A program made the translations under genes and the position numbers. Below the pieces are notes generated by a model. That model did not search any database. It saw only the letters and a program-made list of their open reading frames with translations, and was not told the origin of the DNA. From NCBI GenBank assembly GCA_900696625.1, contig CAADGU010000006.1:1-33100 (forward strand): a stretch of 33,100 bases of DNA, written 5' to 3'. Source of the DNA: an uncultured Chloroflexota bacterium (GTDB lineage: Bacteria > Chloroflexota > Anaerolineae > Promineifilales > Promineifilaceae). Of this stretch, positions 15,183-26,915 are shown in pieces. How positions within the stretch are numbered: position 1 is the first letter of the stretch; the number at the start of each line of letters is the position of its first letter.

Positions 15183-16384
15183 GCGAGAAACAGTATTCCA
15201 TCTGCCTGGTTACCGGCAATTTTACGCAACACAACAGGCGTTTACAGCCCTGGCGTTATTTATCTGAAGCAGCCTGCCAGTTAGCTGCACTCGGCCACAC
15301 GGTGGCCATTGTCACCAATGGCGCATCACCGGATTTTGTGCCGCCCTTAGAGAATGTGGCCATACATCGTCTGGCAACGGTCAGTAATCCCTGGTGGCGG
15401 CCCAATATGGCCTTGCAACAAACCATCCAACAGCTAAAACCGGATGTTATTTTCTGGCACGTGGGCCTGACCAGCTTCTTCCACCAGCAGTTGAGCCATT
15501 CCGGCGCTGCGCCCATTGTGGGGATATTGACCAGCCCTATTTATCATCTGTCCGAGTTATCCCTGATTGGCACAAAAAAGCTTATTTCTGGATTTGGCCT
15601 GACGTTTGTGCATATCCTGGGAACGTTGGCTCCCAAATGGCTTTTACGTCACCTGGCGCGTAAAAATCGCCAGCTTCAATTGCTGGTGGCGCAGACGGAA
15701 AGCACACGTCAGCGGCTCCTTAGCACAGGGGTATGGGCAAAGAGGGTGGAGGTGATAAAACCGGGTGTTGATGCGATATGGTCGCAGGATCATACCAATG
15801 CCGGCAGTCACCTTCGTACTCACTTAGGCTACCATTCGGCCGACAAAGTGGTCTTGTATTTTGGCTCACCGGCACCTTTGCGTGGCCTGCACACATTGAT
15901 TCAAGCGGTACAGCAGGCAGCAACGGCCGTGCCCTCCCTCAAATTGCTCATCTTAAGCCGCCGCCATGCTGACGAGCTAATGCAAGAAGACGCCCAAATG
16001 CGCCACTTATTGGTTCACACTGCTGTAGAGAAGCAGGTTCAGGTAATAAGCGGTTTTTTAGAGCCAGAAGATCTGGCTACATACCTGGCGGCTGCCGATA
16101 TTGTGGCTCTTCCTTTTGAACTGGTGCCATCAGATGCCCCATTGAGTCTGCTAGAGGCTAAAGCATCAGGCAAACCGGTCGTGACCTCAACTGCGGCCTG
16201 CCTGCCCGAATTAGTGGCTGACAGTCCTCATTACCTGGCGCAACCGGCCGATGTCACCTCTCTGGCAAATGCGCTTATACAAGCTGCCAATGATTTGGAA
16301 GGTAATAAGTTTCGACCGTATCCCACAGGGCGTACCTGGCAGCAAATGGGATCAGAATGGCTACACCTGATACAGACATTATGA
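15179..16384 (+). CDS. Family 4 glycosyltransferase (401 aa)
   Basis: GT-B fold enzyme related to GT4. The N-terminal half starts with ICLVTGNFTQHNRR and has CQLAALGHTVAIVTNG. The C-terminal half has VVLYFGSPAPLRGLHTLI, LKLLILSRR, and a donor site APLSLLEAKASGKPVVTS with the second conserved glutamate. A moderately hydrophobic segment near 132-152 may lie on the membrane. It starts at a TTG overlapping the upstream stop and is 4-base coupled at its 3' end (ATGA) to the kinase-like gene. It probably adds one sugar of the repeat unit; donor and linkage are unknown. Confidence 0.85.
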   Translation: MSEKQYSICLVTGNFTQHNRRLQPWRYLSEAACQLAALGHTVAIVTNGASPDFVPPLENVAIHRLATVSNPWWRPNMALQQTIQQLKPDVIFWHVGLTSFFHQQLSHSGAAPIVGILTSPIYHLSELSLIGTKKLISGFGLTFVHILGTLAPKWLLRHLARKNRQLQLLVAQTESTRQRLLSTGVWAKRVEVIKPGVDAIWSQDHTNAGSHLRTHLGYHSADKVVLYFGSPAPLRGLHTLIQAVQQAATAVPSLKLLILSRRHADELMQEDAQMRHLLVHTAVEKQVQVISGFLEPEDLATYLAAADIVALPFELVPSDAPLSLLEAKASGKPVVTSTAACLPELVADSPHYLAQPADVTSLANALIQAANDLEGNKFRPYPTGRTWQQMGSEWLHLIQTL

Positions 16385-17043
16385 TAATGAGACAAAGCCA
16401 CCCTCTGTTTATTTATATCACCGGCTGTGACGGTACAGGCAAAAGCACTCAGGCCAACCTGCTGCGCCAGAGAATGGCCGGTGAGGGGATTGAGACATCT
16501 CATTTGTGGCTGCGCTTTCCCTTTCTGTTCAGCCTGCCGTTGTTGGCCTATGCCCGGTGGCGTGGCTACAGCTGGTATGAAAAAAACGGTAATGTACGTC
16601 ATGGGTACTGGGACTTTCGCCAATCCCATTTATTACGTCTCCTGTTTCCCTGGTTTATGTTGTGCGATGCCACTGTTGCCACCATCCATCAAATCGTTAT
16701 TCCCCAATGGTCAGGAAAAGCCATCGTTTGTGAACGGTTTGTGCTTGATATGCTCGTTGATATGTCCCTGGCCTTTGGCGAAAAGATGCATCGTACCTTG
16801 CCTGGCAAATTATTCTTACGCCTGCTGCCTGCCCATACCCAGGTTGTCATCCTTTATCTGGACGAGGCTACCACCCGTGAGCGACGCGCCGACCTGGTTT
16901 GGGATAAACGCCTGGCAGAGCGCCTGGCAGTATTTAACCATCTGGCGGCCGATTTATCGTTACCGCACTTTTCTAGCTTAATACCTGTTGCCGATTTAAA
17001 CGACAATATCTGGCAGAGGGTTGGAGTAACACATGAGCGTTAA
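16381..17043 (+). CDS. Thymidylate-kinase-like P-loop protein (220 aa)
   Basis: Belongs to the thymidylate kinase superfamily, with a Walker A motif GCDGTGKST (G15-T23 from the chosen start), an ERF motif in IVCERFVLDMLVD corresponding to the DR(Y/F) nucleotide-binding element, and an arginine-rich lid (RERRADLVWDKRL). The 27-75 region is unusually aromatic and hydrophobic compared with housekeeping Tmk. The chosen ATG at 16381 overlaps the previous stop as ATGA; an upstream ATG at 16357 is possible but less likely. It overlaps the next gene by 11 bases. The operon context argues against a DNA-precursor role. Kinases of this fold recur in polysaccharide loci, where the substrate is not established; a lipid or sugar phosphate is one possibility. 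Confidence 0.8.
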   Translation: MIMRQSHPLFIYITGCDGTGKSTQANLLRQRMAGEGIETSHLWLRFPFLFSLPLLAYARWRGYSWYEKNGNVRHGYWDFRQSHLLRLLFPWFMLCDATVATIHQIVIPQWSGKAIVCERFVLDMLVDMSLAFGEKMHRTLPGKLFLRLLPAHTQVVILYLDEATTRERRADLVWDKRLAERLAVFNHLAADLSLPHFSSLIPVADLNDNIWQRVGVTHER

Positions 17044-17653
17044 AGGGTACGCCAAATTTGAGTCAGCCTGGGTTCGCTATTTGTTGCAAAAGCCGTTTAC
17101 GGCCGTTGCCATGCATTGGATGTTTCAAAGCCTGTTTTATATGGACAAAACAGAACGGCGATTCAAGCTAGGTTTAGATGTGGTACTCACTATTCTTTTT
17201 TGGTTACTTTTTCAGCGATGGCTGTCCTGGTTCGTGGCAATCCTTGCCGCATTCTTAATTTCACACACACTCAACTTCTTGTTGAACGGCCACTTGTGGG
17301 GAGTCCTAAAGCATTATGGATATGTCGAGAACAGTTACGAAACGTTCTCGGCATATGCTGCTTGTTTGGCAGTAAGAACAAAAACGAACCAGAGTATCGT
17401 TTACGCCGCAGTTTACGGGAGTTGTGTCAGAGAGGAGTGGCATCCTGCATCGGATCTTGATGTCAGGCTTGTTCGCAACAAAGGATTGGTGAATGGACTT
17501 AAAGCGTGCTGGTATTGTGCAAGGGAGAGAACTCGCGCGCTTCTCTATGGATTTCCACTAGACATTTATCTGTTGGATGACGTGAAAGGTCTGGATCATT
17601 TGCGTTTGGGTGAAATGCCAACAGTTCTACTTGATAGAACTCAGAAGAGTTAG
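17033..17653 (+). CDS. Membrane-anchored nucleotidyltransferase-fold protein (206 aa)
   Basis: Two hydrophobic segments (about 48-61 and 63-84) precede a C-terminal nucleotidyltransferase domain of the MNT/pol-beta type: VYGSCVREEWHPASDLDVRLV, where G129-S130 and the D141/D143 pair form the GS...DxD active site. It is therefore expected to transfer a nucleoside monophosphate (or be a degenerate relative) at the inner membrane surface. GGAG precedes the ATG, and the gene overlaps the kinase-like gene by 11 bases, so the two are probably translated together and may act in one step. No HEPN partner is present, so a toxin-antitoxin reading is unlikely. The acceptor molecule is unknown. Confidence 0.7.
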   Translation: MSVKGYAKFESAWVRYLLQKPFTAVAMHWMFQSLFYMDKTERRFKLGLDVVLTILFWLLFQRWLSWFVAILAAFLISHTLNFLLNGHLWGVLKHYGYVENSYETFSAYAACLAVRTKTNQSIVYAAVYGSCVREEWHPASDLDVRLVRNKGLVNGLKACWYCARERTRALLYGFPLDIYLLDDVKGLDHLRLGEMPTVLLDRTQKS

Positions 17654-17682: not shown

Positions 17683-19509
17683 ATGCGCAAGATCCCGCAG
17701 ATCTGTACGATTTATGAACTTATGATAGCCATGAAAAACTACCTGAAGAAAGCACATCCTCAAGTGCATCTCTTTTGCGCTTTCAGCCTTTTTATCTTTC
17801 TGTCTATTTGGACGCTTTTAAGTGCTGTCTGGGCCAACAGGGCATATCAGGACTCCTGGATACTTGAGAGTTTACTTATCCCTTTGTTACTTACCGTGTT
17901 GTGTTTCATTGTGGTTGTCTATATCAGTTCAAATATTCAGATTGTTACTACAGCCACAATGATATTAACCTTCTTGTTCTTTGCGCTCCCGTCTCTTAAG
18001 TATATTGCACCTTACGGTTCTGCCATTGATGTTTCCGCACACATGTCTTTGATTCGACACATTGCCGATACCGGACAGGTTGATCCATCAAATGTTTATC
18101 AATATACGACGGGCTTTCATGTCTTACCGGCAATTTTGGGCAGATTATCCGGTGGAGACCCAGAACGCTTTGTTAAGGTCATCCCAGCATTGTTGGGGAG
18201 TTTAGTACCAGCTATTTACTGTCTTGTCCTGAGACGGATTGAAGCCCCAACTGATTTAAATAAAATAATCATTGTACTCTCTGGGTTGAGTCTCCCCCCT
18301 TTATATTCCCTCAATGGAACCACCTTCACAACACCGTTGTTTGTCTTTTTCTTTTGCTTGCTTCTGATCCGTTATTTTGAAAGTCCATGGATTCAACGCA
18401 ACGCTTTTGCTCTTACCGTGCTTCTATTACTCGTGGGGGCAACCATCATCATTTGGCATCCTTCTAGTTCATTGGTGTTGGTTTTCATAACCATTACATC
18501 AGGCCTTCTGGCGCGCGCATTGGGTTTTTCAAATGATAAAGGGGAAGCTCTTTGGCGGATTGGATTGCTCATTCTTGTGGGCACATTTTCATACTGGATG
18601 TTCAAAGCCGATCTGGTATGGGAACATTTTGTGCGAAACCTGTATTTGACCCTGCAATCAGAACTTACGCCTGATCTTGTTCCTAAGCGTTTATTTGAAC
18701 TCTCTTTTGTGGAGCAGATACAAATTGGCCTCTACACTCATGTACGAGATGTCCTATTCATAGGGATGGGCAGCCTTGGATTCTTGTTGCAAATGAGGGC
18801 AAGCAGTCATGCCAATAGAGGCAACAGAGTAGGACGGCTTTTGGCTATTTTATGGTTATCCAGCCTGCTGATGGTTACGGTGATTTTTGCCGCTGGATTC
18901 GGGTCGCAAGGGTATCGGCGGTTTCTAAATTACATTGTGGTATTTAGCCCGTGGTTAGCAGGATTTGGTATGTGGAGTAGTATGAAGGTCTTTTCAGCTC
19001 AAGTACCAAAGGCAAAAACAACATTCATGGCTGCCGGATCATTGTTAATAATCATTTTGATATCCGGTGTGCAGTTGTTTCCCTATCAGCCGGCTTTACC
19101 GGCCATATCTGTAACTGAAAACAACGATATGGGCACACCTGTCATGTGGATGCATCAGGTGAATACTTCCTATCAGTATCAGATGCTTGACTACGCGCTT
19201 CACCAACTGCCTGAAAATGTGAAGCTAACTGCGGATTATGTTGGGCAACGGCAAAGCGGGATATTTTTTAACAGGCAGGCGCAGTCCCGCATACAACGCC
19301 TGGAGACGCCACTTGCCGGATCTGTGGTCCTTTTACACTGGCCGGGACAGGCCGGCCCCTATTTTGAGCAGGCCGGTTCCCGATCTATAGACGCAATCAG
19401 TAATTGGCGTAGTTATCCTGGGATCATGACGATCTATGACAATGGCGGTTCCTTTATCCTATTTGATCCTATCGGGGTAGTTAAAGTTTCAAGAGTGGAG
19501 AGTGAGTAA
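17683..19509 (+). CDS. Polytopic membrane protein, putative GT-C glycosyltransferase (608 aa)
   Basis: At least ten hydrophobic segments fill residues 30-465 (for example 33-50, 62-84, 86-104, 215-228, 240-258, 262-275, 290-305, 355-370, 385-405 and 447-465), followed by a soluble tail of about 145 residues. After the third segment an extracytoplasmic loop reads GSAIDVSAHMSLIRHI, which places an acidic residue and a histidine as in the first loop of GT-C enzymes. I infer a polyprenyl-phosphate-sugar-dependent transferase, which would fit the DPM1-like gene at 11064, but no family is firmly recognised. The start is uncertain: ATGs at 17683, 17722 and 17731 are possible, and none has a clear ribosome site. 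It is AT-richer than the upstream genes. A polymerase is an alternative function. Confidence 0.6.
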   Translation: MRKIPQICTIYELMIAMKNYLKKAHPQVHLFCAFSLFIFLSIWTLLSAVWANRAYQDSWILESLLIPLLLTVLCFIVVVYISSNIQIVTTATMILTFLFFALPSLKYIAPYGSAIDVSAHMSLIRHIADTGQVDPSNVYQYTTGFHVLPAILGRLSGGDPERFVKVIPALLGSLVPAIYCLVLRRIEAPTDLNKIIIVLSGLSLPPLYSLNGTTFTTPLFVFFFCLLLIRYFESPWIQRNAFALTVLLLLVGATIIIWHPSSSLVLVFITITSGLLARALGFSNDKGEALWRIGLLILVGTFSYWMFKADLVWEHFVRNLYLTLQSELTPDLVPKRLFELSFVEQIQIGLYTHVRDVLFIGMGSLGFLLQMRASSHANRGNRVGRLLAILWLSSLLMVTVIFAAGFGSQGYRRFLNYIVVFSPWLAGFGMWSSMKVFSAQVPKAKTTFMAAGSLLIIILISGVQLFPYQPALPAISVTENNDMGTPVMWMHQVNTSYQYQMLDYALHQLPENVKLTADYVGQRQSGIFFNRQAQSRIQRLETPLAGSVVLLHWPGQAGPYFEQAGSRSIDAISNWRSYPGIMTIYDNGGSFILFDPIGVVKVSRVESE

Positions 19510-19514
19510 AAAAC

Positions 19515-20252
19515 ATGTTCGACAGCACTATACAAGCAAATCTGGTTATTGCATCTTTTTTTCTGGTGCTTTTTGCTCCAGGCTTTTCCCTTACCCTCTT
19601 GCTGTTTCCAGGGTCGGAAATTGACTGGTTAGAACGATTCACTTTGGCAGTAATCACAAGCGTTGCTTTAGCCAGCCTGATTGGCGCCGCATTACTGGTG
19701 ACGTTTGATGCCTTAATCCTTTCCTGGTTTTCCTTTATCCTCATTGGATTCACGCTGCTTTTTATGTGTGGCGCCTGGTGGCGCAGCCGTGACAGAGATG
19801 ATGGGGTGACGTTAGCCATTTATCCAAAACGGAACACCTGGTTTACAGCGCTTGTTTTATGCATTGCCCTGATGCTCATTACCTTAGGGGGGCAAACATT
19901 AAGTGACCTGCGTTCCCCCTTGCAATTCACTGAATTCTTCATTGAACCTGGGCAATCTAGTCGGGCCTTTGAAGCAGAAGTAGATGTAGAGGGCAAATTG
20001 ATCATTCCAGTTGTTGTCAAGGCCGGACTAGATCACCCAGGACCATTTCAGATAGAGGTTTATGCAGAACAAGAAAAGCTGTGGGAGTCAGCTGTTCCTG
20101 ATATGCAGCCGAATGAAAGTTGGAATCAGACTTTGCGTATTCAACCACCTTCAAACACCAGGGCAAATGCATTGCACTTATATTTAACCTCTGAAGTAGA
20201 TAAAGAGCCAATCAGACAATTAACTGTGTGGTTCTCTGACAAGGACTCTTAA
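19515..20252 (+). CDS. DUF1616-like membrane protein (245 aa)
   Basis: Four hydrophobic segments (about 8-30, 40-62, 67-87, 106-126) precede a beta-rich soluble domain (130-245) predicted outside the cytoplasm. The N-terminal pattern FFLVLFAPGFSLTLLLFPG followed by DWLERF matches my recollection of the DUF1616 family, which is best known from archaea and found beside glycosyltransferases. The function of that family is not established. The gene lies 5 bases after the GT-C-like gene, with GGAGAG in that gene's last codons as a ribosome site, so the two may work together. It contains no ACGGCCGT. Confidence 0.6.
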   Translation: MFDSTIQANLVIASFFLVLFAPGFSLTLLLFPGSEIDWLERFTLAVITSVALASLIGAALLVTFDALILSWFSFILIGFTLLFMCGAWWRSRDRDDGVTLAIYPKRNTWFTALVLCIALMLITLGGQTLSDLRSPLQFTEFFIEPGQSSRAFEAEVDVEGKLIIPVVVKAGLDHPGPFQIEVYAEQEKLWESAVPDMQPNESWNQTLRIQPPSNTRANALHLYLTSEVDKEPIRQLTVWFSDKDS

Positions 20253-20300: not shown

Positions 20301-21572
20301 ATGGGTAACATGCTTATATCAGGTAGAAGCTATCTGGTCAAACAGAATAGACTGGCGACCAATTCGCTTGTGATTATGATGACTCGCCTGGTGGGGCCAG
20401 GGGGCAGTTTCCTCTTTTGGGCGCTTGCGGCGCGTCTGATTTCGGCTCAAGAATTGGGATTAGCTGCCGCAGTTGTGGCATCGGCAACATTTCTGAGCAG
20501 CATGGCGCAGATGGGAATTGGATTTGCTTTGATACGGTATCTGCCACATGAGAAGAACCCGATACGATTGACAAACCTGGCTTTGGAAGCGGTTGGCGCT
20601 TTAGCGGCGGTTATTGCTTTGGTGTTTATCCTGGGAGCCCAGCTGTGGTCTCCGGCTCTTGTCCTGCTGCGCAGCCATTGGCTGATAGCGTTAGCGTTCG
20701 TGGCTACCATTGTCATGTATAGCCTGATTCAATTACTGAATGCTGTGTATGTAGCTAGACGCCTGCCAATATTTTCGCTCCAGTTAAGTAGCATACAGTC
20801 TGTGCTTTCCATACTTTTCTTGCTCTTATTGCCCTTCTGGTTTGAGGGATATGTAGCTATTCTTGTTGCTTACCTGTTTTCTTTTATAGCCAGTTTTGCA
20901 CTGGCCGTTTTTGCCTTCTTGCCACGCTCAGAGCCAGGATTTCGACTTGCTTTGGTGGTTCCTGAGAAACTGCGGACTCCGTTCAGTCGCTATGCTTTTA
21001 CCAACCATGCTGCCCAACAGTTGATTCAAGCCCCTGGAAACCTGATGACCCTCGTGGCAATCAATGTGTTGGGCCCTGGCTTGAGTGGCTTTTTCTTCAT
21101 TGCCTGGGCTATTGTGCAGGGAGTTTTCATGGTGGCTGGTTCTGTTGCCTATTCGTTATTGGCTGAGGGGTCAAACAAGCCCGGGTTGACTGCTACCTTT
21201 ACCCATCAGGCATTCAAACTGGGATTGCCAATTGCTGCAGGTTTTACGCTTTTACTTTTGTTACTTGGCAAACCGTTATTGGCAATTTATGGACAGGAGT
21301 ATGTGCAAAACAGCCTGATCCCACTCCAGCTTCTTGCACTTTCGATAATCCCCAGTGTAATAATCGCCATCTTTTTTAACGTGCTGCGCATTCGCATGGC
21401 AATAAGATCGTTGGTGGTGATTGCGCTCTTTTGGTCCGTGATTAGTTTTTCCTCCACGATCCTTTTCATGTGGGAATTTGGGGTTAATGGTGCGGCGTTC
21501 GGCTGGTCTCTTTCGCAAATTGCACTTGCCATAGCCTTAACCGTTCTCTGGAAACGGCGATTGCTTGTATAG
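20301..21572 (+). CDS. Wzx-type polysaccharide flippase, MOP superfamily (423 aa)
   Basis: About twelve hydrophobic segments over the whole length, starting with the amphipathic NSLVIMMTRLVGPGGSFLFW and FGFALIRYLP-like region (IGFALIRYLPHEK) typical of Wzx/RfbX and MurJ-type transporters. It should flip the lipid-linked repeat unit across the cytoplasmic membrane for polymerisation by the Wzy-like protein at 23701. The length is usual for the family. The ribosome site is weak, and the second ATG at 20310 is an alternative start. A 48-base gap before it and a 74-base gap after it are the widest so far in the operon, which may allow internal promoters. Its base composition is AT-rich for the window. 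Confidence 0.85.
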   Translation: MGNMLISGRSYLVKQNRLATNSLVIMMTRLVGPGGSFLFWALAARLISAQELGLAAAVVASATFLSSMAQMGIGFALIRYLPHEKNPIRLTNLALEAVGALAAVIALVFILGAQLWSPALVLLRSHWLIALAFVATIVMYSLIQLLNAVYVARRLPIFSLQLSSIQSVLSILFLLLLPFWFEGYVAILVAYLFSFIASFALAVFAFLPRSEPGFRLALVVPEKLRTPFSRYAFTNHAAQQLIQAPGNLMTLVAINVLGPGLSGFFFIAWAIVQGVFMVAGSVAYSLLAEGSNKPGLTATFTHQAFKLGLPIAAGFTLLLLLLGKPLLAIYGQEYVQNSLIPLQLLALSIIPSVIIAIFFNVLRIRMAIRSLVVIALFWSVISFSSTILFMWEFGVNGAAFGWSLSQIALAIALTVLWKRRLLV

Positions 21573-21646: not shown

Positions 21647-23623
21647 ATGTCTGAAATGATCAAAAATAAAGTTAGTTGTCCATCTTGTCATGAGTATTTA
21701 GGCTCTGTTGGATTGAGAGGCTGTTGTCCCGAATGTGGTACTGTCTACGAATATAGATATGGCATTTATGACTTTATCCCAGGTGAGGATTTTTATTGGG
21801 GTGAGGTTAGCCAGGAGAAAATGTGGCAGATCAACGAACAAGCGTTGCAAGATGGCTGGTTAACCAGTCTTCGGGAAAATCTCCGTGATCGGGCTAATCT
21901 CATACCCTATATTACCAGCCCGGCTCGTTTAGGTTGGCTTTGTCATGGCTACGCTACAGAATCCAGAGGGGTTTGTGTTGATTTTGGCAGCGGTTGGGGA
22001 TCGCTTAGTTTTGGCCTCAGCAAGTTTTATGACACTGTATATAGCGTTGACGGTGTTCACGAGAGACTCCGTTTTCAAGCGATACGGGCTGAATTGGATG
22101 GAGTTGACAACATTTGCCTGATCAGAAGTTCACTACTTAAGGTACCGCTGCCGGATAACTCCGTTGACCTGGTTGTCCTCAATGGTGTTCTGGAATGGGT
22201 TGGATTGAGTATGCCTCATTTGGATCCCCGTAAGGTGCAGTTGCTCTTGCTACGCGAGGTGAGGCGCATCCTAAAACCGTCAGGAAAGGTTTATATTGGC
22301 ATTGAGAACCGTCTGGGTTTGCAATACTTTCTGGGAGCCAGAGATCACTCTGGTTTGCCCTTCACCAGCCTTGTGCCCAGAAAGGTTGCCGACAAAATGC
22401 TTCGGTTTGTTAATAGAGGCAAGACGGAATTGGTTACCGATGCCCACGTTTTCTCCGGCGCCGAATCTGAATATCGCACTTTGACATATTCCCTGAAAGG
22501 GTACCGTGAGCTTTTGGCCGAAGCGGGCTTTCCACGAATGAAATCATATTGGGCATGGCAGAGTTACAGCTACCCCCGCGTCAGCGGTCCATTTGATGGA
22601 AACGGAGCGAATATACGTTATTTGGTTCGCTACCTGCGTGATTTGACGGACAATCATGGGTTGCGTCTGATGATGGGCCTGGTGTTGTTTTTGCCGTCCT
22701 TTTTGCTCAGTTGGCTGAGTTCACTGTTTTCACCGTTTTTCCTGATCTTTGCCGACAGTGGTACGGCCATTACTGGTCTCGAAGACGAGATATTGCAAGA
22801 GAACCCAGGCGCCGAGAGTTTTTTACGGACAAGTCTGGGTGATAGTCTGGCGTATAAGACGACATATTTGTTATTAAATAGAAAGGGGAGTGTGCAAAAA
22901 GCAGTGAGAGTTGAGGCAGATTCGGATAATTCATCAAGGATGACGCTTATGGCAACACAGGCAACGGGGGGTGTTGACGGCCGAATGCTGCGCCCCTATC
23001 GAAAGGATGAGCTAGAGACGGTGGCTCATTGGATAGCTCGTTATCAGCAGAGTACCACATCAGATGAGTGGCCATTGGCTACGTTGGAACAAGAAATTGA
23101 CGAGATCATGGCTGTGATACGGCCGTTGCCCGGCCTGGATGATTGTTCTGAACTGTTGGACGCCTATCACCAACACTATAAGAACACATTGGCTAAAACC
23201 AAGCTGCCGGTTGTGGGGGAACACGGCGACTACACCCCACCCAATATCCTGGTGACTACCAATGGAGAAATTGAAGTTGTTGACTGGGAATTTTCGCGAA
23301 CTCCAGGCAATCCTTTGCTTGATGTAGGCGGCATGGGCCTTTCCTTATTAAGACGTTTCGCAGATAAACAGGCTGTTAGCGCGAAGGTAAACCTCAACGA
23401 CCCGGCGCACCACTTTTTTGTGACGTATCTCAACCATATGCCGGGATACATTCCCGTTCACCTTGCGCCAGCGTACTACTTGCTAAGGCTGATTGCCAGG
23501 AAAGCCCGTGAGAACAGTTCTGCGCCAGAGAATCATCTTGCCCTTGGTGCGTGGCTTCCTTTACTAAAGCCAACACTTGCTTGGAGTATTGCCTCGGCCA
23601 GATTGCCGATGTTCAGCAGGTGA
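21647..23623 (+). CDS. Zinc ribbon-methyltransferase-kinase fusion (658 aa)
   Basis: An N-terminal zinc ribbon with CPSC (C11, C14) and CPEC (C27, C30) is followed by a class I SAM-dependent methyltransferase (about 85-310), motif I being VDFGSGWGS with D112-G118. A hydrophobic stretch (about 340-370) separates it from an aminoglycoside-phosphotransferase-like kinase domain (about 395-640). The kinase has the catalytic loop HGDYTPPN (H526, D528, N533) and the metal-binding DWEF (D546); its N-lobe looks short. AAGGA is 9 bases upstream of the ATG. E. coli WbdD, a methyltransferase-kinase, caps O-antigen chains, and by analogy this protein may modify or terminate the glycan. That is inference: the zinc ribbon and APH-like kinase differ from WbdD. 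Confidence 0.8.
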   Translation: MSEMIKNKVSCPSCHEYLGSVGLRGCCPECGTVYEYRYGIYDFIPGEDFYWGEVSQEKMWQINEQALQDGWLTSLRENLRDRANLIPYITSPARLGWLCHGYATESRGVCVDFGSGWGSLSFGLSKFYDTVYSVDGVHERLRFQAIRAELDGVDNICLIRSSLLKVPLPDNSVDLVVLNGVLEWVGLSMPHLDPRKVQLLLLREVRRILKPSGKVYIGIENRLGLQYFLGARDHSGLPFTSLVPRKVADKMLRFVNRGKTELVTDAHVFSGAESEYRTLTYSLKGYRELLAEAGFPRMKSYWAWQSYSYPRVSGPFDGNGANIRYLVRYLRDLTDNHGLRLMMGLVLFLPSFLLSWLSSLFSPFFLIFADSGTAITGLEDEILQENPGAESFLRTSLGDSLAYKTTYLLLNRKGSVQKAVRVEADSDNSSRMTLMATQATGGVDGRMLRPYRKDELETVAHWIARYQQSTTSDEWPLATLEQEIDEIMAVIRPLPGLDDCSELLDAYHQHYKNTLAKTKLPVVGEHGDYTPPNILVTTNGEIEVVDWEFSRTPGNPLLDVGGMGLSLLRRFADKQAVSAKVNLNDPAHHFFVTYLNHMPGYIPVHLAPAYYLLRLIARKARENSSAPENHLALGAWLPLLKPTLAWSIASARLPMFSR

Positions 23624-23628
23624 CGGTT

Positions 23629-23684
23629 CAGACCTGACAGATTACTCAACTTGAACTGTTGCAAGTCAAAGACCTGTCAGGTTT
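23629..23684 (+). repeat. Structured intergenic stem-loop before the polymerase gene
   Basis: ACCTGACAG (23632-23640) pairs perfectly with CTGTCAGGT (23674-23682), and the stem extends by a G-U and an A-U pair. The loop contains a second inverted repeat, ACTTG/CAAGT (23649-23667). The right arm is itself an imperfect palindrome (ACCTGTCAGGT). The element fills most of the 77-base gap between the fusion gene and the polymerase gene. It may be a mobile palindrome or an mRNA processing or attenuation site. Confidence 0.5.
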
Positions 23685-23700
23685 AAGGTGTGAGATCCAA

Positions 23701-26046
23701 ATGACAACTACAAAAAAAAACTGGCTCTCAGCAGCCAATCAAGAAGAAATAGCGACATTGCGACATAATCGCCCCGGACAGCGGCTGGTTGAGCCATTGT
23801 GGGCATGGATTGTTACCCTGTTGTTGGTAACAGCGATTATCGGGGCTGCTGTGGCTCCCGATAAAGCCCTTGCTCTTAACCGGTTGTCACTGTTGATGTT
23901 GGGTGTCGTTGTATTCTACACCATTACCCTCTTGATTAGATCTGCTCAAGATGTGAACAAAGTGACCCTTGTACTCATGGGTCTGAGCATCGGCGTAGCT
24001 GGTTTAAGCCTGGTTGTAACCAACTGGTCAATGGGGGTGTTGGTGAGAAGTTTGCCCGTAGCAGGAAATATCCCATTGCTGCTGGACCTGCCTAACAGCG
24101 GTGTACCTAAACCTTATGCGGGGGTAAACCCGCGACTGATCGGTGGCACTATGGCCTTTTTGCTGCCTTTGTCGCTGTCGGTAGCTTTTTGGGGGGAGAG
24201 GAACAGGTTACGGCTTTTTGCTGGCCTGGCTTCTCTGGTAGTAACGCTTCCCCTACTTCTATCTCAATCTCCCCAGGCGTATTTAGGTTTTGGGCTGGCG
24301 TTGGCCGTGCTGGTTGCCTGGCGCTTCCCCCGCAGTGTGCTGGTTCAAATTCCGGTGGGGTTGGCAGTGGTATTTACCTGGTGGCGCTGGCGTTGGTGGC
24401 TTTCTGATGCGCTAGTAGAGCGATTGGAGATCGGTATTGTCGCCCGGTTCCCCATCTGGGCGAAGGCGTGGCTGATGATACGGGATATGCCTTTTACCGG
24501 GAGCGGACTAAACAACTTTCCGGTGATGGATAGGTTATACAGCCCGATTCCCAGCCAACAGGTGAGCGCCCACAATATTTTTCTGCAAACGGCCGTTGAC
24601 CAGGGCATCTTCGGTCTTGTTGCCTTTATCGCCTTATTTGTTGTCGCCCTTACAGCTGGTTGGCGGGCATACTACCGCACCGATGACCGGAATCTGCGAG
24701 CCATTATCCTCGGTTGTGTGGGTGGGTGCATCGCCTTTCTAGGGTTTGGCTTGTGGGACGTGATCTCCTTAGGGCACAAACCGGCGCCCGCTTTATGGGC
24801 CATGCTGGCCATACTGGCTGCCGGAGAGCGGCTGACGGCAGCGGGCGGGATCTCATTACGGCCAAAGATCGGGGCGGGCAAGATGCTGGCGCCTCTGGTG
24901 GTGGTTGTTTTGCTCCTGTCTCCGTTATGGGCCAGCGCACTGCTGGTCAACGTGGGGCGGATAACGTGGCATCAAGGGACAATAAGTCCAGAAGCCATCA
25001 CCCCGGCCCAACTGGATCAGGCAGAAAACCTTTCCCGGCAGGCTGTTGCACTGTATCCGAATAACGGCCGTGCCTACTCCCTGCTGGGGTTGCTGGCTGA
25101 TGGGCGCGGTGATCGGGACACGGCCGTTGTTTACTGGCAACGTGCTGTAGATTTAGACCCTGCGGATTTCTCCGCCCACTTTCAACTTGGGGCAGCCTAC
25201 CACACGACCGATCAGACCCATCTGACACTCCAACATTGGTATCAAGCCGGGGGTCTGGAGTTGCTCTACTGGCAAGGTAGAGACGCTATAAAAGAAAACC
25301 AGTTTGTCCTGGCTGAAGCTTGTTTTGACTATATCATGCAGCTCAACCCAGCCTACAAAGAGGCGTGGTGGTACCTGGCTCGGATGCAAATACGGCATGA
25401 AGAATGGGGTTCAGCCAGACAAACCTACCAAATGCGAATCAGTCTTTCTCCTGGCGATGTGCGCGCTTACGAAGGTCTGGCAAGTCTTTTGCGTAACCAC
25501 CTGAACGATCCCATTTTAGCCCTGCAGGTGATAGAGCAAGGTTTTGTTCAGACGCAAATTGAAAGCCCACAGCTCTATTATTTGCGCTCGCGCATAACGG
25601 CCGATAGCGGGGATTTTGTGGCCGCCGAACAAGACGCAAAAATGGCTGTCACGCTGTTACCGGCCAATGATGAGTACCGTACCGGGTTAGCTGACCTGTA
25701 TACCAGGCAGGGCAAACATCAGGAGGCGCTGGCACAATACGACTATATTATCGCCAACACCACCAATCAGGACATGGTGTGGCGTACCTATCAACGCCAA
25801 TCTCGCATATACGCCGCGCAGGAAAATTGGCTTCTGGCTATTGCCGCTTATGAGGTTGCTATCCCCATAAGCCACAATCAGGGCGCTTCACCGGCAGCTA
25901 CGGCCACTCTCTATGCGTCGTTGGGTATTGCCTTGTTTCAAAACGGCGATCTGGCGCGAGCCAGTTGGGCCGCCAATGAAGCACTGGTGCATGACCCAGA
26001 AAACACAACAGCCAGGCAACTGCTGGCGAAGATAGAATCAGGATGA
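23701..26046 (+). CDS. O-antigen polymerase/ligase-like protein with TPR tail (781 aa)
   Basis: The N-terminal half (about 35-415) has ten or more hydrophobic segments and the Wzy/WaaL-type block: PRLIGGTMAFLLPLSL, then GSGLNNFPVMD and SAHNIFLQTAVDQGIFG, where the histidine in HN is characteristic of the Wzy_C family. The C-terminal half (about 430-781) is a run of TPR-like helical repeats, for example NGRAYSLLGLLADGRGDRDTA and EAWWYLARMQIRHEEWGSA. It probably polymerises or ligates flipped repeat units outside the membrane while the TPR domain recruits partners. The ATG at 23701 is preferred over 23659, whose extra 14 residues would be encoded by the stem-loop element. It overlaps the protease gene as ATGA. 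Confidence 0.85.
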   Translation: MTTTKKNWLSAANQEEIATLRHNRPGQRLVEPLWAWIVTLLLVTAIIGAAVAPDKALALNRLSLLMLGVVVFYTITLLIRSAQDVNKVTLVLMGLSIGVAGLSLVVTNWSMGVLVRSLPVAGNIPLLLDLPNSGVPKPYAGVNPRLIGGTMAFLLPLSLSVAFWGERNRLRLFAGLASLVVTLPLLLSQSPQAYLGFGLALAVLVAWRFPRSVLVQIPVGLAVVFTWWRWRWWLSDALVERLEIGIVARFPIWAKAWLMIRDMPFTGSGLNNFPVMDRLYSPIPSQQVSAHNIFLQTAVDQGIFGLVAFIALFVVALTAGWRAYYRTDDRNLRAIILGCVGGCIAFLGFGLWDVISLGHKPAPALWAMLAILAAGERLTAAGGISLRPKIGAGKMLAPLVVVVLLLSPLWASALLVNVGRITWHQGTISPEAITPAQLDQAENLSRQAVALYPNNGRAYSLLGLLADGRGDRDTAVVYWQRAVDLDPADFSAHFQLGAAYHTTDQTHLTLQHWYQAGGLELLYWQGRDAIKENQFVLAEACFDYIMQLNPAYKEAWWYLARMQIRHEEWGSARQTYQMRISLSPGDVRAYEGLASLLRNHLNDPILALQVIEQGFVQTQIESPQLYYLRSRITADSGDFVAAEQDAKMAVTLLPANDEYRTGLADLYTRQGKHQEALAQYDYIIANTTNQDMVWRTYQRQSRIYAAQENWLLAIAAYEVAIPISHNQGASPAATATLYASLGIALFQNGDLARASWAANEALVHDPENTTARQLLAKIESG

Positions 26047-26915
26047 GATTAATGATACACACAACTCCCCTTGCTTCTTCCCTGTCACGCTATTCTACTC
26101 AGCGCGTGGCCTTGTTTTACCTGGTAGGAGTTACCCTGGCAGAATTACTGACCGTTTTTTCTGATCCTCGCCTGGGCTTAATCGGGCACACCATGCTCCT
26201 GATTGCACTGATTATTCACAGCAGCCGAATTCGAGGGCGGTCAGGACTTCAGCTACTTCTGGCGCTTATCCCCCTCCCCCTGATTCGTCTTGTCAGCCTG
26301 TCGCTGCCCTTAGCCGATTTCCCACTGATTTACTGGTTTTTTTTGATCAGCCTGCCGCTCTTTATAACCATCTTTATGGTCATGCGCCTGTCAGGCTGGG
26401 GTTGGCGTGATTTGGGTCTGGCTATATCGTTCAAAAGAGTTCCGGTGCAACTGCTGGTGGCTACAACTGGTTTCTTCTTTGGCTTCGTTGAATATCTGAT
26501 TTTACGGCCGGAACCATTGGTAGAGCGTTTTACCTGGCAGGCTACCTGGCTGCCGGCCATTATACTTCTCATCAGCACCGGCTATTTAGAAGAGCTGCTG
26601 TTTCGTCGAGTTCTGCAGCGCCCGGCTATTAAGGTCATGGGTATCTGGCCGGGTATCACGTATGCTGCCCTTCTGTTTGCTGTTTTCCACATAGGCCATC
26701 AATCCCTTGTTGATGTGGTATTCGTATTTTTGGTGGGGCTTTTCTTTGGCTGGATTGTGTGGAAAACCGGTAGTCTGATCGGTGTCACCCTCGCCCATGG
26801 GCTGACTAACATTGTCTTTTTTCTAGTGATGCCTTTTTATGCCAGTGGCGCCGGTATAGTGGCCATGGGTGGCATAGATGAAATGGTTCGGGTCGTTACA
26901 ACTTTTTTTTATTAG
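26043..26915 (+). CDS. CPBP-family intramembrane metalloprotease (290 aa)
   Basis: Eight or so hydrophobic segments and the three motifs of the CPBP (Abi, Rce1-like) family: EELLFR with E183, E184 and R188; FAVFH with H216; and HGLTN with H252 and N256. The catalytic glutamate and both zinc-ligand histidines are present, so it is probably an active membrane protease. It starts inside the polymerase stop codon (ATGA), which implies a linked function. It could process the polymerase, the small membrane protein downstream or a surface anchor. Some family members confer immunity to peptides, but nothing here suggests a bacteriocin. Confidence 0.88.
   Translation: MRLMIHTTPLASSLSRYSTQRVALFYLVGVTLAELLTVFSDPRLGLIGHTMLLIALIIHSSRIRGRSGLQLLLALIPLPLIRLVSLSLPLADFPLIYWFFLISLPLFITIFMVMRLSGWGWRDLGLAISFKRVPVQLLVATTGFFFGFVEYLILRPEPLVERFTWQATWLPAIILLISTGYLEELLFRRVLQRPAIKVMGIWPGITYAALLFAVFHIGHQSLVDVVFVFLVGLFFGWIVWKTGSLIGVTLAHGLTNIVFFLVMPFYASGAGIVAMGGIDEMVRVVTTFFY

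Follow-up and report, generated by a model that had tools for sequence, protein, structure and literature searches.

A zinc ribbon-methyltransferase-kinase fusion between flippase and Wzy_C genes of a Chloroflexota bacterium, with an O7-like methyltransferase and a reduced kinase N-lobe

Methylphosphate capping has been documented for a few enterobacterial ABC-transporter O-antigens. In WbdD of Escherichia coli O9a a methyltransferase is followed by a kinase, and the enzyme adds a phosphate and then a methyl group to the end of the glycan; the kinase is Src-like and the protein carries a coiled-coil ruler (PMC3482155). ORF6-O7 of Klebsiella pneumoniae was shown in 2024 to phosphorylate a glycan in vitro and then to methylate it, and it caps the O-antigen with methylphosphate. 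Its kinase is APH-like, closest to AmiN, and the D441A substitution abolishes activity (PMC11231755). In Wzx/Wzy systems Wzy joins each new unit to the growing chain at its reducing terminus (PMC12004945).

Here we describe a gene found in a window of 33,100 nucleotides, the whole stretch of DNA analysed, from an uncultured Chloroflexota bacterium. The first-pass annotation had read its product as a possible glycan capping enzyme joining a C4 zinc ribbon, a methyltransferase (D112-G118) and an APH-like kinase (H526, D528, N533, D546), and we found all of these elements at the positions it had given.

The fusion gene and its neighbours

The features discussed below are, by position in the window:

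20301..21572, + strand: neighbouring flippase-type protein, Polysacc_synt (Pfam E 1.2e-6)
21647..23623, + strand: whole gene, zinc ribbon, SAM methyltransferase and APH-type kinase, 658 aa (open reading frame, Pfam domains, AlphaFold2)
21677..21736, + strand: C4 zinc ribbon, Trm112p-like, C11, C14, C27 and C30 (cysteines across relatives)
21785..22756, + strand: class I SAM methyltransferase core, about residues 47-370 (Pfam, fold matches, O7-type homology)
22664..22756, + strand: hydrophobic stretch, residues 340-370 (DSSP of the model; Kyte-Doolittle)
22814..22990, + strand: kinase N-lobe, reduced (AlphaFold2 models; beta3-to-hinge spacing)
22991..23620, + strand: kinase C-lobe with HGDYTPPN (526-533) and VVDWE (D546) (Pfam APH; Foldseek LicA; fold matches)
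23659..26046, + strand: neighbouring Wzy_C protein (O-antigen ligase/polymerase family) with TPR repeats (Pfam E 9.4e-12)

The 658-residue reading frame opens with ATG, preceded by AAAGGATGAAG as a plausible ribosome-binding site, and the gene is present in one copy in the window's genome. AlphaFold2 modelled the whole protein with a mean pLDDT of 79.9 and a pTM of 0.82. Pfam places Methyltransf_11 at residues 111-217 (E 5.9e-13) and APH at residues 440-566 (E 5e-7), the latter match beginning only at profile position 75 because the N-lobe of the kinase is short. The cysteines of the zinc ribbon are nearly invariant across 15 relatives, and the relative L006 matches Trm112p weakly in Pfam (E 0.005). 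Since the four cysteines and both sets of catalytic motifs recur in the family at 27-45% identity, the combination of domains is more than chance.

The gene had been annotated as lying between a flippase and a polymerase, which the Pfam matches bear out: a Polysacc_synt protein is encoded upstream across a gap of 74 bp and a Wzy_C protein with TPR repeats downstream across 35 bp. The cluster also contains GT2, GT4 and Alg14/GT28 genes. No ABC genes were found within 11 kb of the gene using profiles of those at a related locus, L003; a flippase and Wzy_C adjoin it, not an ABC transporter (Wzm/Wzt).

Several other genes in this part of the window deserve mention. Positions 17683-20252 encode a 608-aa polytopic protein without a Pfam match, followed by a DUF1616 membrane protein; a similar-sized pair lies upstream of the fusion at locus L008, and BLASTP similarity between that pair and the 608-aa and 245-aa membrane proteins of the window was not significant. 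Within the glycan cluster, at 16357-17653, a thymidylate-kinase-like P-loop protein and a Polbeta-type nucleotidyltransferase are encoded with an 11-base overlap, and the nucleotidyltransferase has a hydrophobic N-terminal part with a weak match to GtrA. An Rce1-like CAAX-type membrane protease (26043-26915) adjoins the Wzy_C gene at the end of the cluster.

The methyltransferase family and its coupling to kinases

The methyltransferase of the window protein contains the family motifs GVLEWVG and GIENRLGLQYFLGARDHSG, and comparison of the model with known folds returned class I methyltransferases at Z of about 15-16, covering residues 45-373. One of these is RlmA(I), in which a Trm112-type ribbon likewise precedes the SAM fold (1p91, aligned over window residues 8-373, Z 15.6). 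RlmA(I) methylates rRNA; the window protein differs from it in sitting in a glycan locus and in carrying a kinase. Also among the fold matches is CgnL (7pd7, Z 15.4), which in the O7 study had been found closest to ORF6-O7 (PMC11231755).

It had been suggested that the hydrophobic stretch at residues 340-370 might hold the protein at the membrane. The best 19-residue Kyte-Doolittle mean in this stretch is 1.84. In the model, DSSP assigns helices to residues 337-346 and 351-361 and then a strand of the methyltransferase sheet to 364-370. With two short helices and the final strand of the fold occupying residues 337-370, in agreement with the fold matches, we rejected the stretch as a free membrane anchor, although it may still contact the membrane peripherally.

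When plasmid proteins were compared with the window protein, two of those that matched best were P0002 from Pseudomonas asturiensis and P0003 from Citrobacter braakii. Each is encoded in a sugar-polymer locus, where its gene follows directly on genes for an ABC permease and ATPase, and in P0002 the residues Y28, Y66, G91, G93, E112 and Y158 carry exactly the numbers that they have in the published ORF6-O7. On this residue numbering and gene order, rather than on the Klebsiella sequence, we take both as O7-type terminators. With hhalign the profile of the family methyltransferase aligned to P0002 and P0003 over 250-281 columns with E values of 4.5e-24 to 3.1e-20, including the motif IEN(R/Q)xG...G...DH.G, and five unrelated methyltransferases from glycan loci, used as controls, gave 2.4e-4 to 3e-9. 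By these alignments the window methyltransferase is assigned to the same subfamily as that of the O7-type terminators. Against WbdD of E. coli HS the same profile gave E 7.9e-6 over 75 columns of the SAM core only, a score no better than that of ordinary methyltransferases. Strict membership of the WbdD family was rejected.

Single-sequence pattern scans of genome and viral contigs found no relative, whereas an alignment of the methyltransferase did. In all, 20 loci of the family were found, 12 of which came from the methyltransferase-only query, and the search with the alignment reached Chloroflexota, Armatimonadota, Acidobacteriota, Woesebacteria, a Hebobacteria MAG and a Deltaproteobacteria/Myxococcota MAG. 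In 19 of the 20 loci the methyltransferase has an APH-type kinase fused to it or directly adjacent: the kinase is fused in six (the window, L008, L009, L011, L013 and L031) and directly adjacent in 13 (L003, L006, L007, L012, L014, L015, L017, L018, L019, L029, L030, L032 and L039), and L016 is the only locus without such a kinase nearby. L009 and L011 are near copies, as are L017 and L018, which leaves an independent count of about 17 of 18. In the window protein two genes that are neighbours in relatives have been joined into one. The distribution is patchy. The methyltransferase occurs in 3 of 56 genomes of the window's order and in 8 of 396 genomes of the class, and none of the five genomes of the same genus that were searched has it.

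Glycan genes accompany most of these loci. With profiles built here, a glycosyltransferase (GT), flippase, Wzy, sugar-transferase or epimerase gene was found no more than 8 kb away in 16 of 19 loci, the exceptions within that distance being L007, L014 and L015. In six loci a flippase lies within 1.3 kb, confirmed by Pfam for the window, L006 and L017 and recognised by profile alone for L018 and L031; the sixth, at L032, had served as a seed for a profile and is without a Pfam match. At L006 the methyltransferase and kinase genes overlap by 4 bp, and the order flippase, methyltransferase, kinase, Wzy_C is the same as in the window. At L003 genes for an ABC-2 ATPase and permease adjoin the methyltransferase and kinase genes.

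Many proteins of the APH fold are detoxification or resistance enzymes, and the APH match in Pfam would fit an enzyme acting on a small molecule in this way; fusion or pairing with a methyltransferase in the glycan loci of several phyla makes such a role very improbable.

Some of the related loci have features of their own. At 10678-13508 of L003 (G194), immediately before its ABC, methyltransferase and kinase genes, we recognised by eye Radical SAM/SPASM-like, HprK-like and signal-peptidase-like genes. The Woesebacteria fusions L009 (9995-11878) and L011 (9998-11878) lack the zinc ribbon, have a full kinase N-lobe and begin 4 bp inside the preceding GT2 gene. At L007 (9894-11946, G440) the methyltransferase and kinase genes overlap and both have lost catalytic motifs (GCDWG, HGA, NW); this pair, near pyrimidine genes and outside any glycan locus, may possibly be pseudoenzymes that have been kept together. 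At L029 (7595-8695, G479) HGN, S and NW replace HGD, N and DW in the kinase, and the adjoining methyltransferase is apparently intact. A second APH-type kinase with full motifs (Pfam E 4.9e-20) is encoded at 5974-7251 of L008, 2.7 kb upstream of the fusion.

The kinase and its reduced N-lobe

The kinase of the window protein retains the catalytic motifs of the APH superfamily (PF01636), HGDxxxxN and the aspartate of the DFG-like site. As in the O7-type proteins an APH-like kinase with a catalytic aspartate follows the methyltransferase, as seen from D528, D546, Pfam and the fold matches. Fold searches placed small-molecule and sugar kinases closest to the model: LicA choline kinase was matched by Foldseek with E 2.7e-6, glucosamine kinase and maltokinase each reached a Z of 13.9, and N-acetylhexosamine kinase and APH enzymes were also found. 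The kinase shares the fold and the HGDxxxxN and DW motifs with the APH/choline-kinase superfamily (PF01636; LicA, NahK, maltokinase, glucosamine kinase), and differs in lacking helix C and strand 4 and in being fused to a methyltransferase.

This difference lies in the N-lobe. The models have strands at residues 391-395, 404-410 and 416-423, followed by a low-confidence stretch in the place of helix C and strand 4, which are absent both from the whole-protein model and from that of the kinase folded alone (mean pLDDT 74.8), leaving three or four strands. The beta3 lysine of APH kinases aligns with K418, whose role is putative, and a complete APH N-lobe, with this lysine and the helix C glutamate, is not found. 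The first-pass annotation had named the lack of a nucleotide pocket as evidence against its reading, and the predicted structure bears this out in part, as the N-lobe is modelled without helix C. The beta3-to-hinge spacing is 24 residues for the window protein as for L008, 26-28 in the O7-type proteins and 41-55 in other relatives. An assembly artefact was rejected as the cause of the short lobe, as L008, from an independent genome and 41% identical overall, has the same length there.

In the tree of the methyltransferases the window protein and L008 group together (100/98) and are sister to a Woesebacteria fusion (97/97), although bootstrap support is not fully settled. As the sister fusion keeps a full N-lobe, the shortening is, by this tree, derived within the clade of the window protein and L008, and could mean that the kinase is decaying. 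Kinship with the O7-type kinases through the short N-lobe was considered and found unsupported. Between the window family and the O7 type the kinase domains could be aligned at the catalytic loop alone, with no significant relation beyond it, and the O7-type pair stands apart on the methyltransferase tree, so that the shortening looks independent in the two groups.

It is possible that in the lineage of the window protein the methyltransferase works alone and the APH-like domain is a pseudokinase, which binds the acceptor or holds the methyltransferase, so that a methyl group and no phosphate would be added. This is the main rival to an active kinase, and we give it a smaller but real chance. 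It would explain why helix C and strand 4 are missing from both the window protein and L008, why the N-lobe is of low confidence in both models and why L008, the nearest relative, has His in place of the metal-binding Asp (HW for DW); degenerate kinases also occur elsewhere in the family, at L029 (HGN, S, NW) and L007 (HGA, NW). Yet the window protein retains H526, D528, N533 and D546 together with the beta3 lysine K418, and the O7-type kinases are about equally short (26-28) although ORF6-O7 is active (PMC11231755). Given the short N-lobe, the shared loss and the missing metal Asp in L008, and the similarly short O7-type kinases, the kinase activity of the window protein is uncertain. A lobe of this length, close to that of the O7 type, leads one to ask how small an N-lobe a sugar kinase can do with.

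Proposed function and comparison with known terminators

We tentatively favour a bifunctional glycan-modifying enzyme, which would place a phosphate on a lipid-linked glycan in the cytoplasm and then methylate it before flipping. On the cytoplasmic side the APH-type kinase would phosphorylate a lipid-linked oligosaccharide at a hydroxyl; the methyltransferase would then methylate that phosphate, and the flippase would afterwards carry the modified glycan across the membrane. Here we infer the active kinase, the distal-sugar acceptor, the methyl on the phosphate and the order of the steps. In support of this proposal are the domains with their catalytic motifs, the coupling of methyltransferase and kinase in nearly every locus, the glycan genes that usually lie nearby, and the homology of the methyltransferase to O7-type terminators; the short, partly low-confidence N-lobe, the missing metal Asp in L008, the derived shortening, the kinase's lack of a significant sequence relation to the O7-type kinase outside the catalytic loop and the three loci where no glycan gene of the kinds sought lies near count against it. 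Phosphorylation and then methylation of a glycan end would be the most likely activity of the window protein.

The glycan loci, the coupling in 19 of 20 loci and the O7-type methyltransferase make a glycan-modifying methyltransferase-kinase the best reading and so uphold the annotated capping enzyme in part; a role in chain-length control in a Wzx/Wzy system is unsupported. Nor is a cap made by a methyltransferase and an APH-like kinase new, as it had already been published for K. pneumoniae O7 (PMC11231755). No coiled-coil ruler follows the kinase: the protein ends at the C-lobe helix 627-650 of the model, and a crude heptad score is 0.48, against 0.95 for WbdD and 0.81 for P0003. A ruler mechanism is unsupported for this reason. 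As Wzy adds at the reducing terminus (PMC12004945), a cap placed in the cytoplasm at the non-reducing end would not end growth in the manner of WbdD; in a Wzx/Wzy pathway it would mark the distal (first) repeat unit and bar it as a Wzy acceptor.

A WbdD-like terminator in which a physical ruler fixes the chain length would share both activities and would suit L003, where ABC-2 genes adjoin. For the window protein we find it improbable, since there is no coiled coil, the match to WbdD is limited to the SAM core, and a flippase and Wzy_C are present in the window, with Wzy adding at the reducing terminus (PMC12004945).

In a second alternative no end is capped and the repeat unit or its precursor is decorated: an internal sugar would be phosphorylated and methylated, or one hydroxyl methylated and another position phosphorylated, in every unit. 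In a locus of the Wzx/Wzy type the enzyme meets every repeat unit in the cytoplasm, the window protein has no ruler, and some family members have no close GT gene, all of which would agree with decoration. The non-reducing end, however, is where the one homologue of the methyltransferase that has been characterised acts (PMC11231755), and we regard decoration as unlikely.

A conjecture in which we place little confidence is that the ruler-free module of Chloroflexota, Acidobacteriota, Armatimonadota and candidate phyla caps a fraction of the units before flipping. Capped units would then be found only at the distal end of chains, and the ratio of capped to uncapped units, not a ruler, would set chain number and length. 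A literature search of partial coverage returned no report of a methyltransferase-kinase module in a Wzx/Wzy system. The family would extend likely methylphosphate chemistry to several poorly studied phyla. It presents both activities in a module of two genes, sometimes fused and patchy in distribution, and this module stands next to flippases, a setting in which a ruler of the accepted kind cannot operate.

Compared with WbdD, which has a Src-like kinase and a ruler, the window protein has no coiled coil and its best kinase fold matches are APH/choline kinases. Comparison of the kinase profile A6 with WbdD gave a probability of 36%, and WbdD was absent from the kinase profile search at E 0.1 and from the best 50 fold rows, an absence that proves nothing alone. 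ORF6-O7 is the closer system. A methyltransferase of one subfamily is followed in both by an APH-like kinase, with a short N-lobe also in P0002 and P0003. ORF6-O7 has a coiled coil and two GT2 modules, has no reported zinc ribbon and works with Wzm/Wzt, whereas the window protein does have a zinc ribbon, stops after the kinase and is encoded between a flippase and Wzy_C. What we describe is an O7-like methyltransferase-kinase module without a ruler, found mainly in flippase-type loci, split or fused, and with a reduced N-lobe in the window clade.
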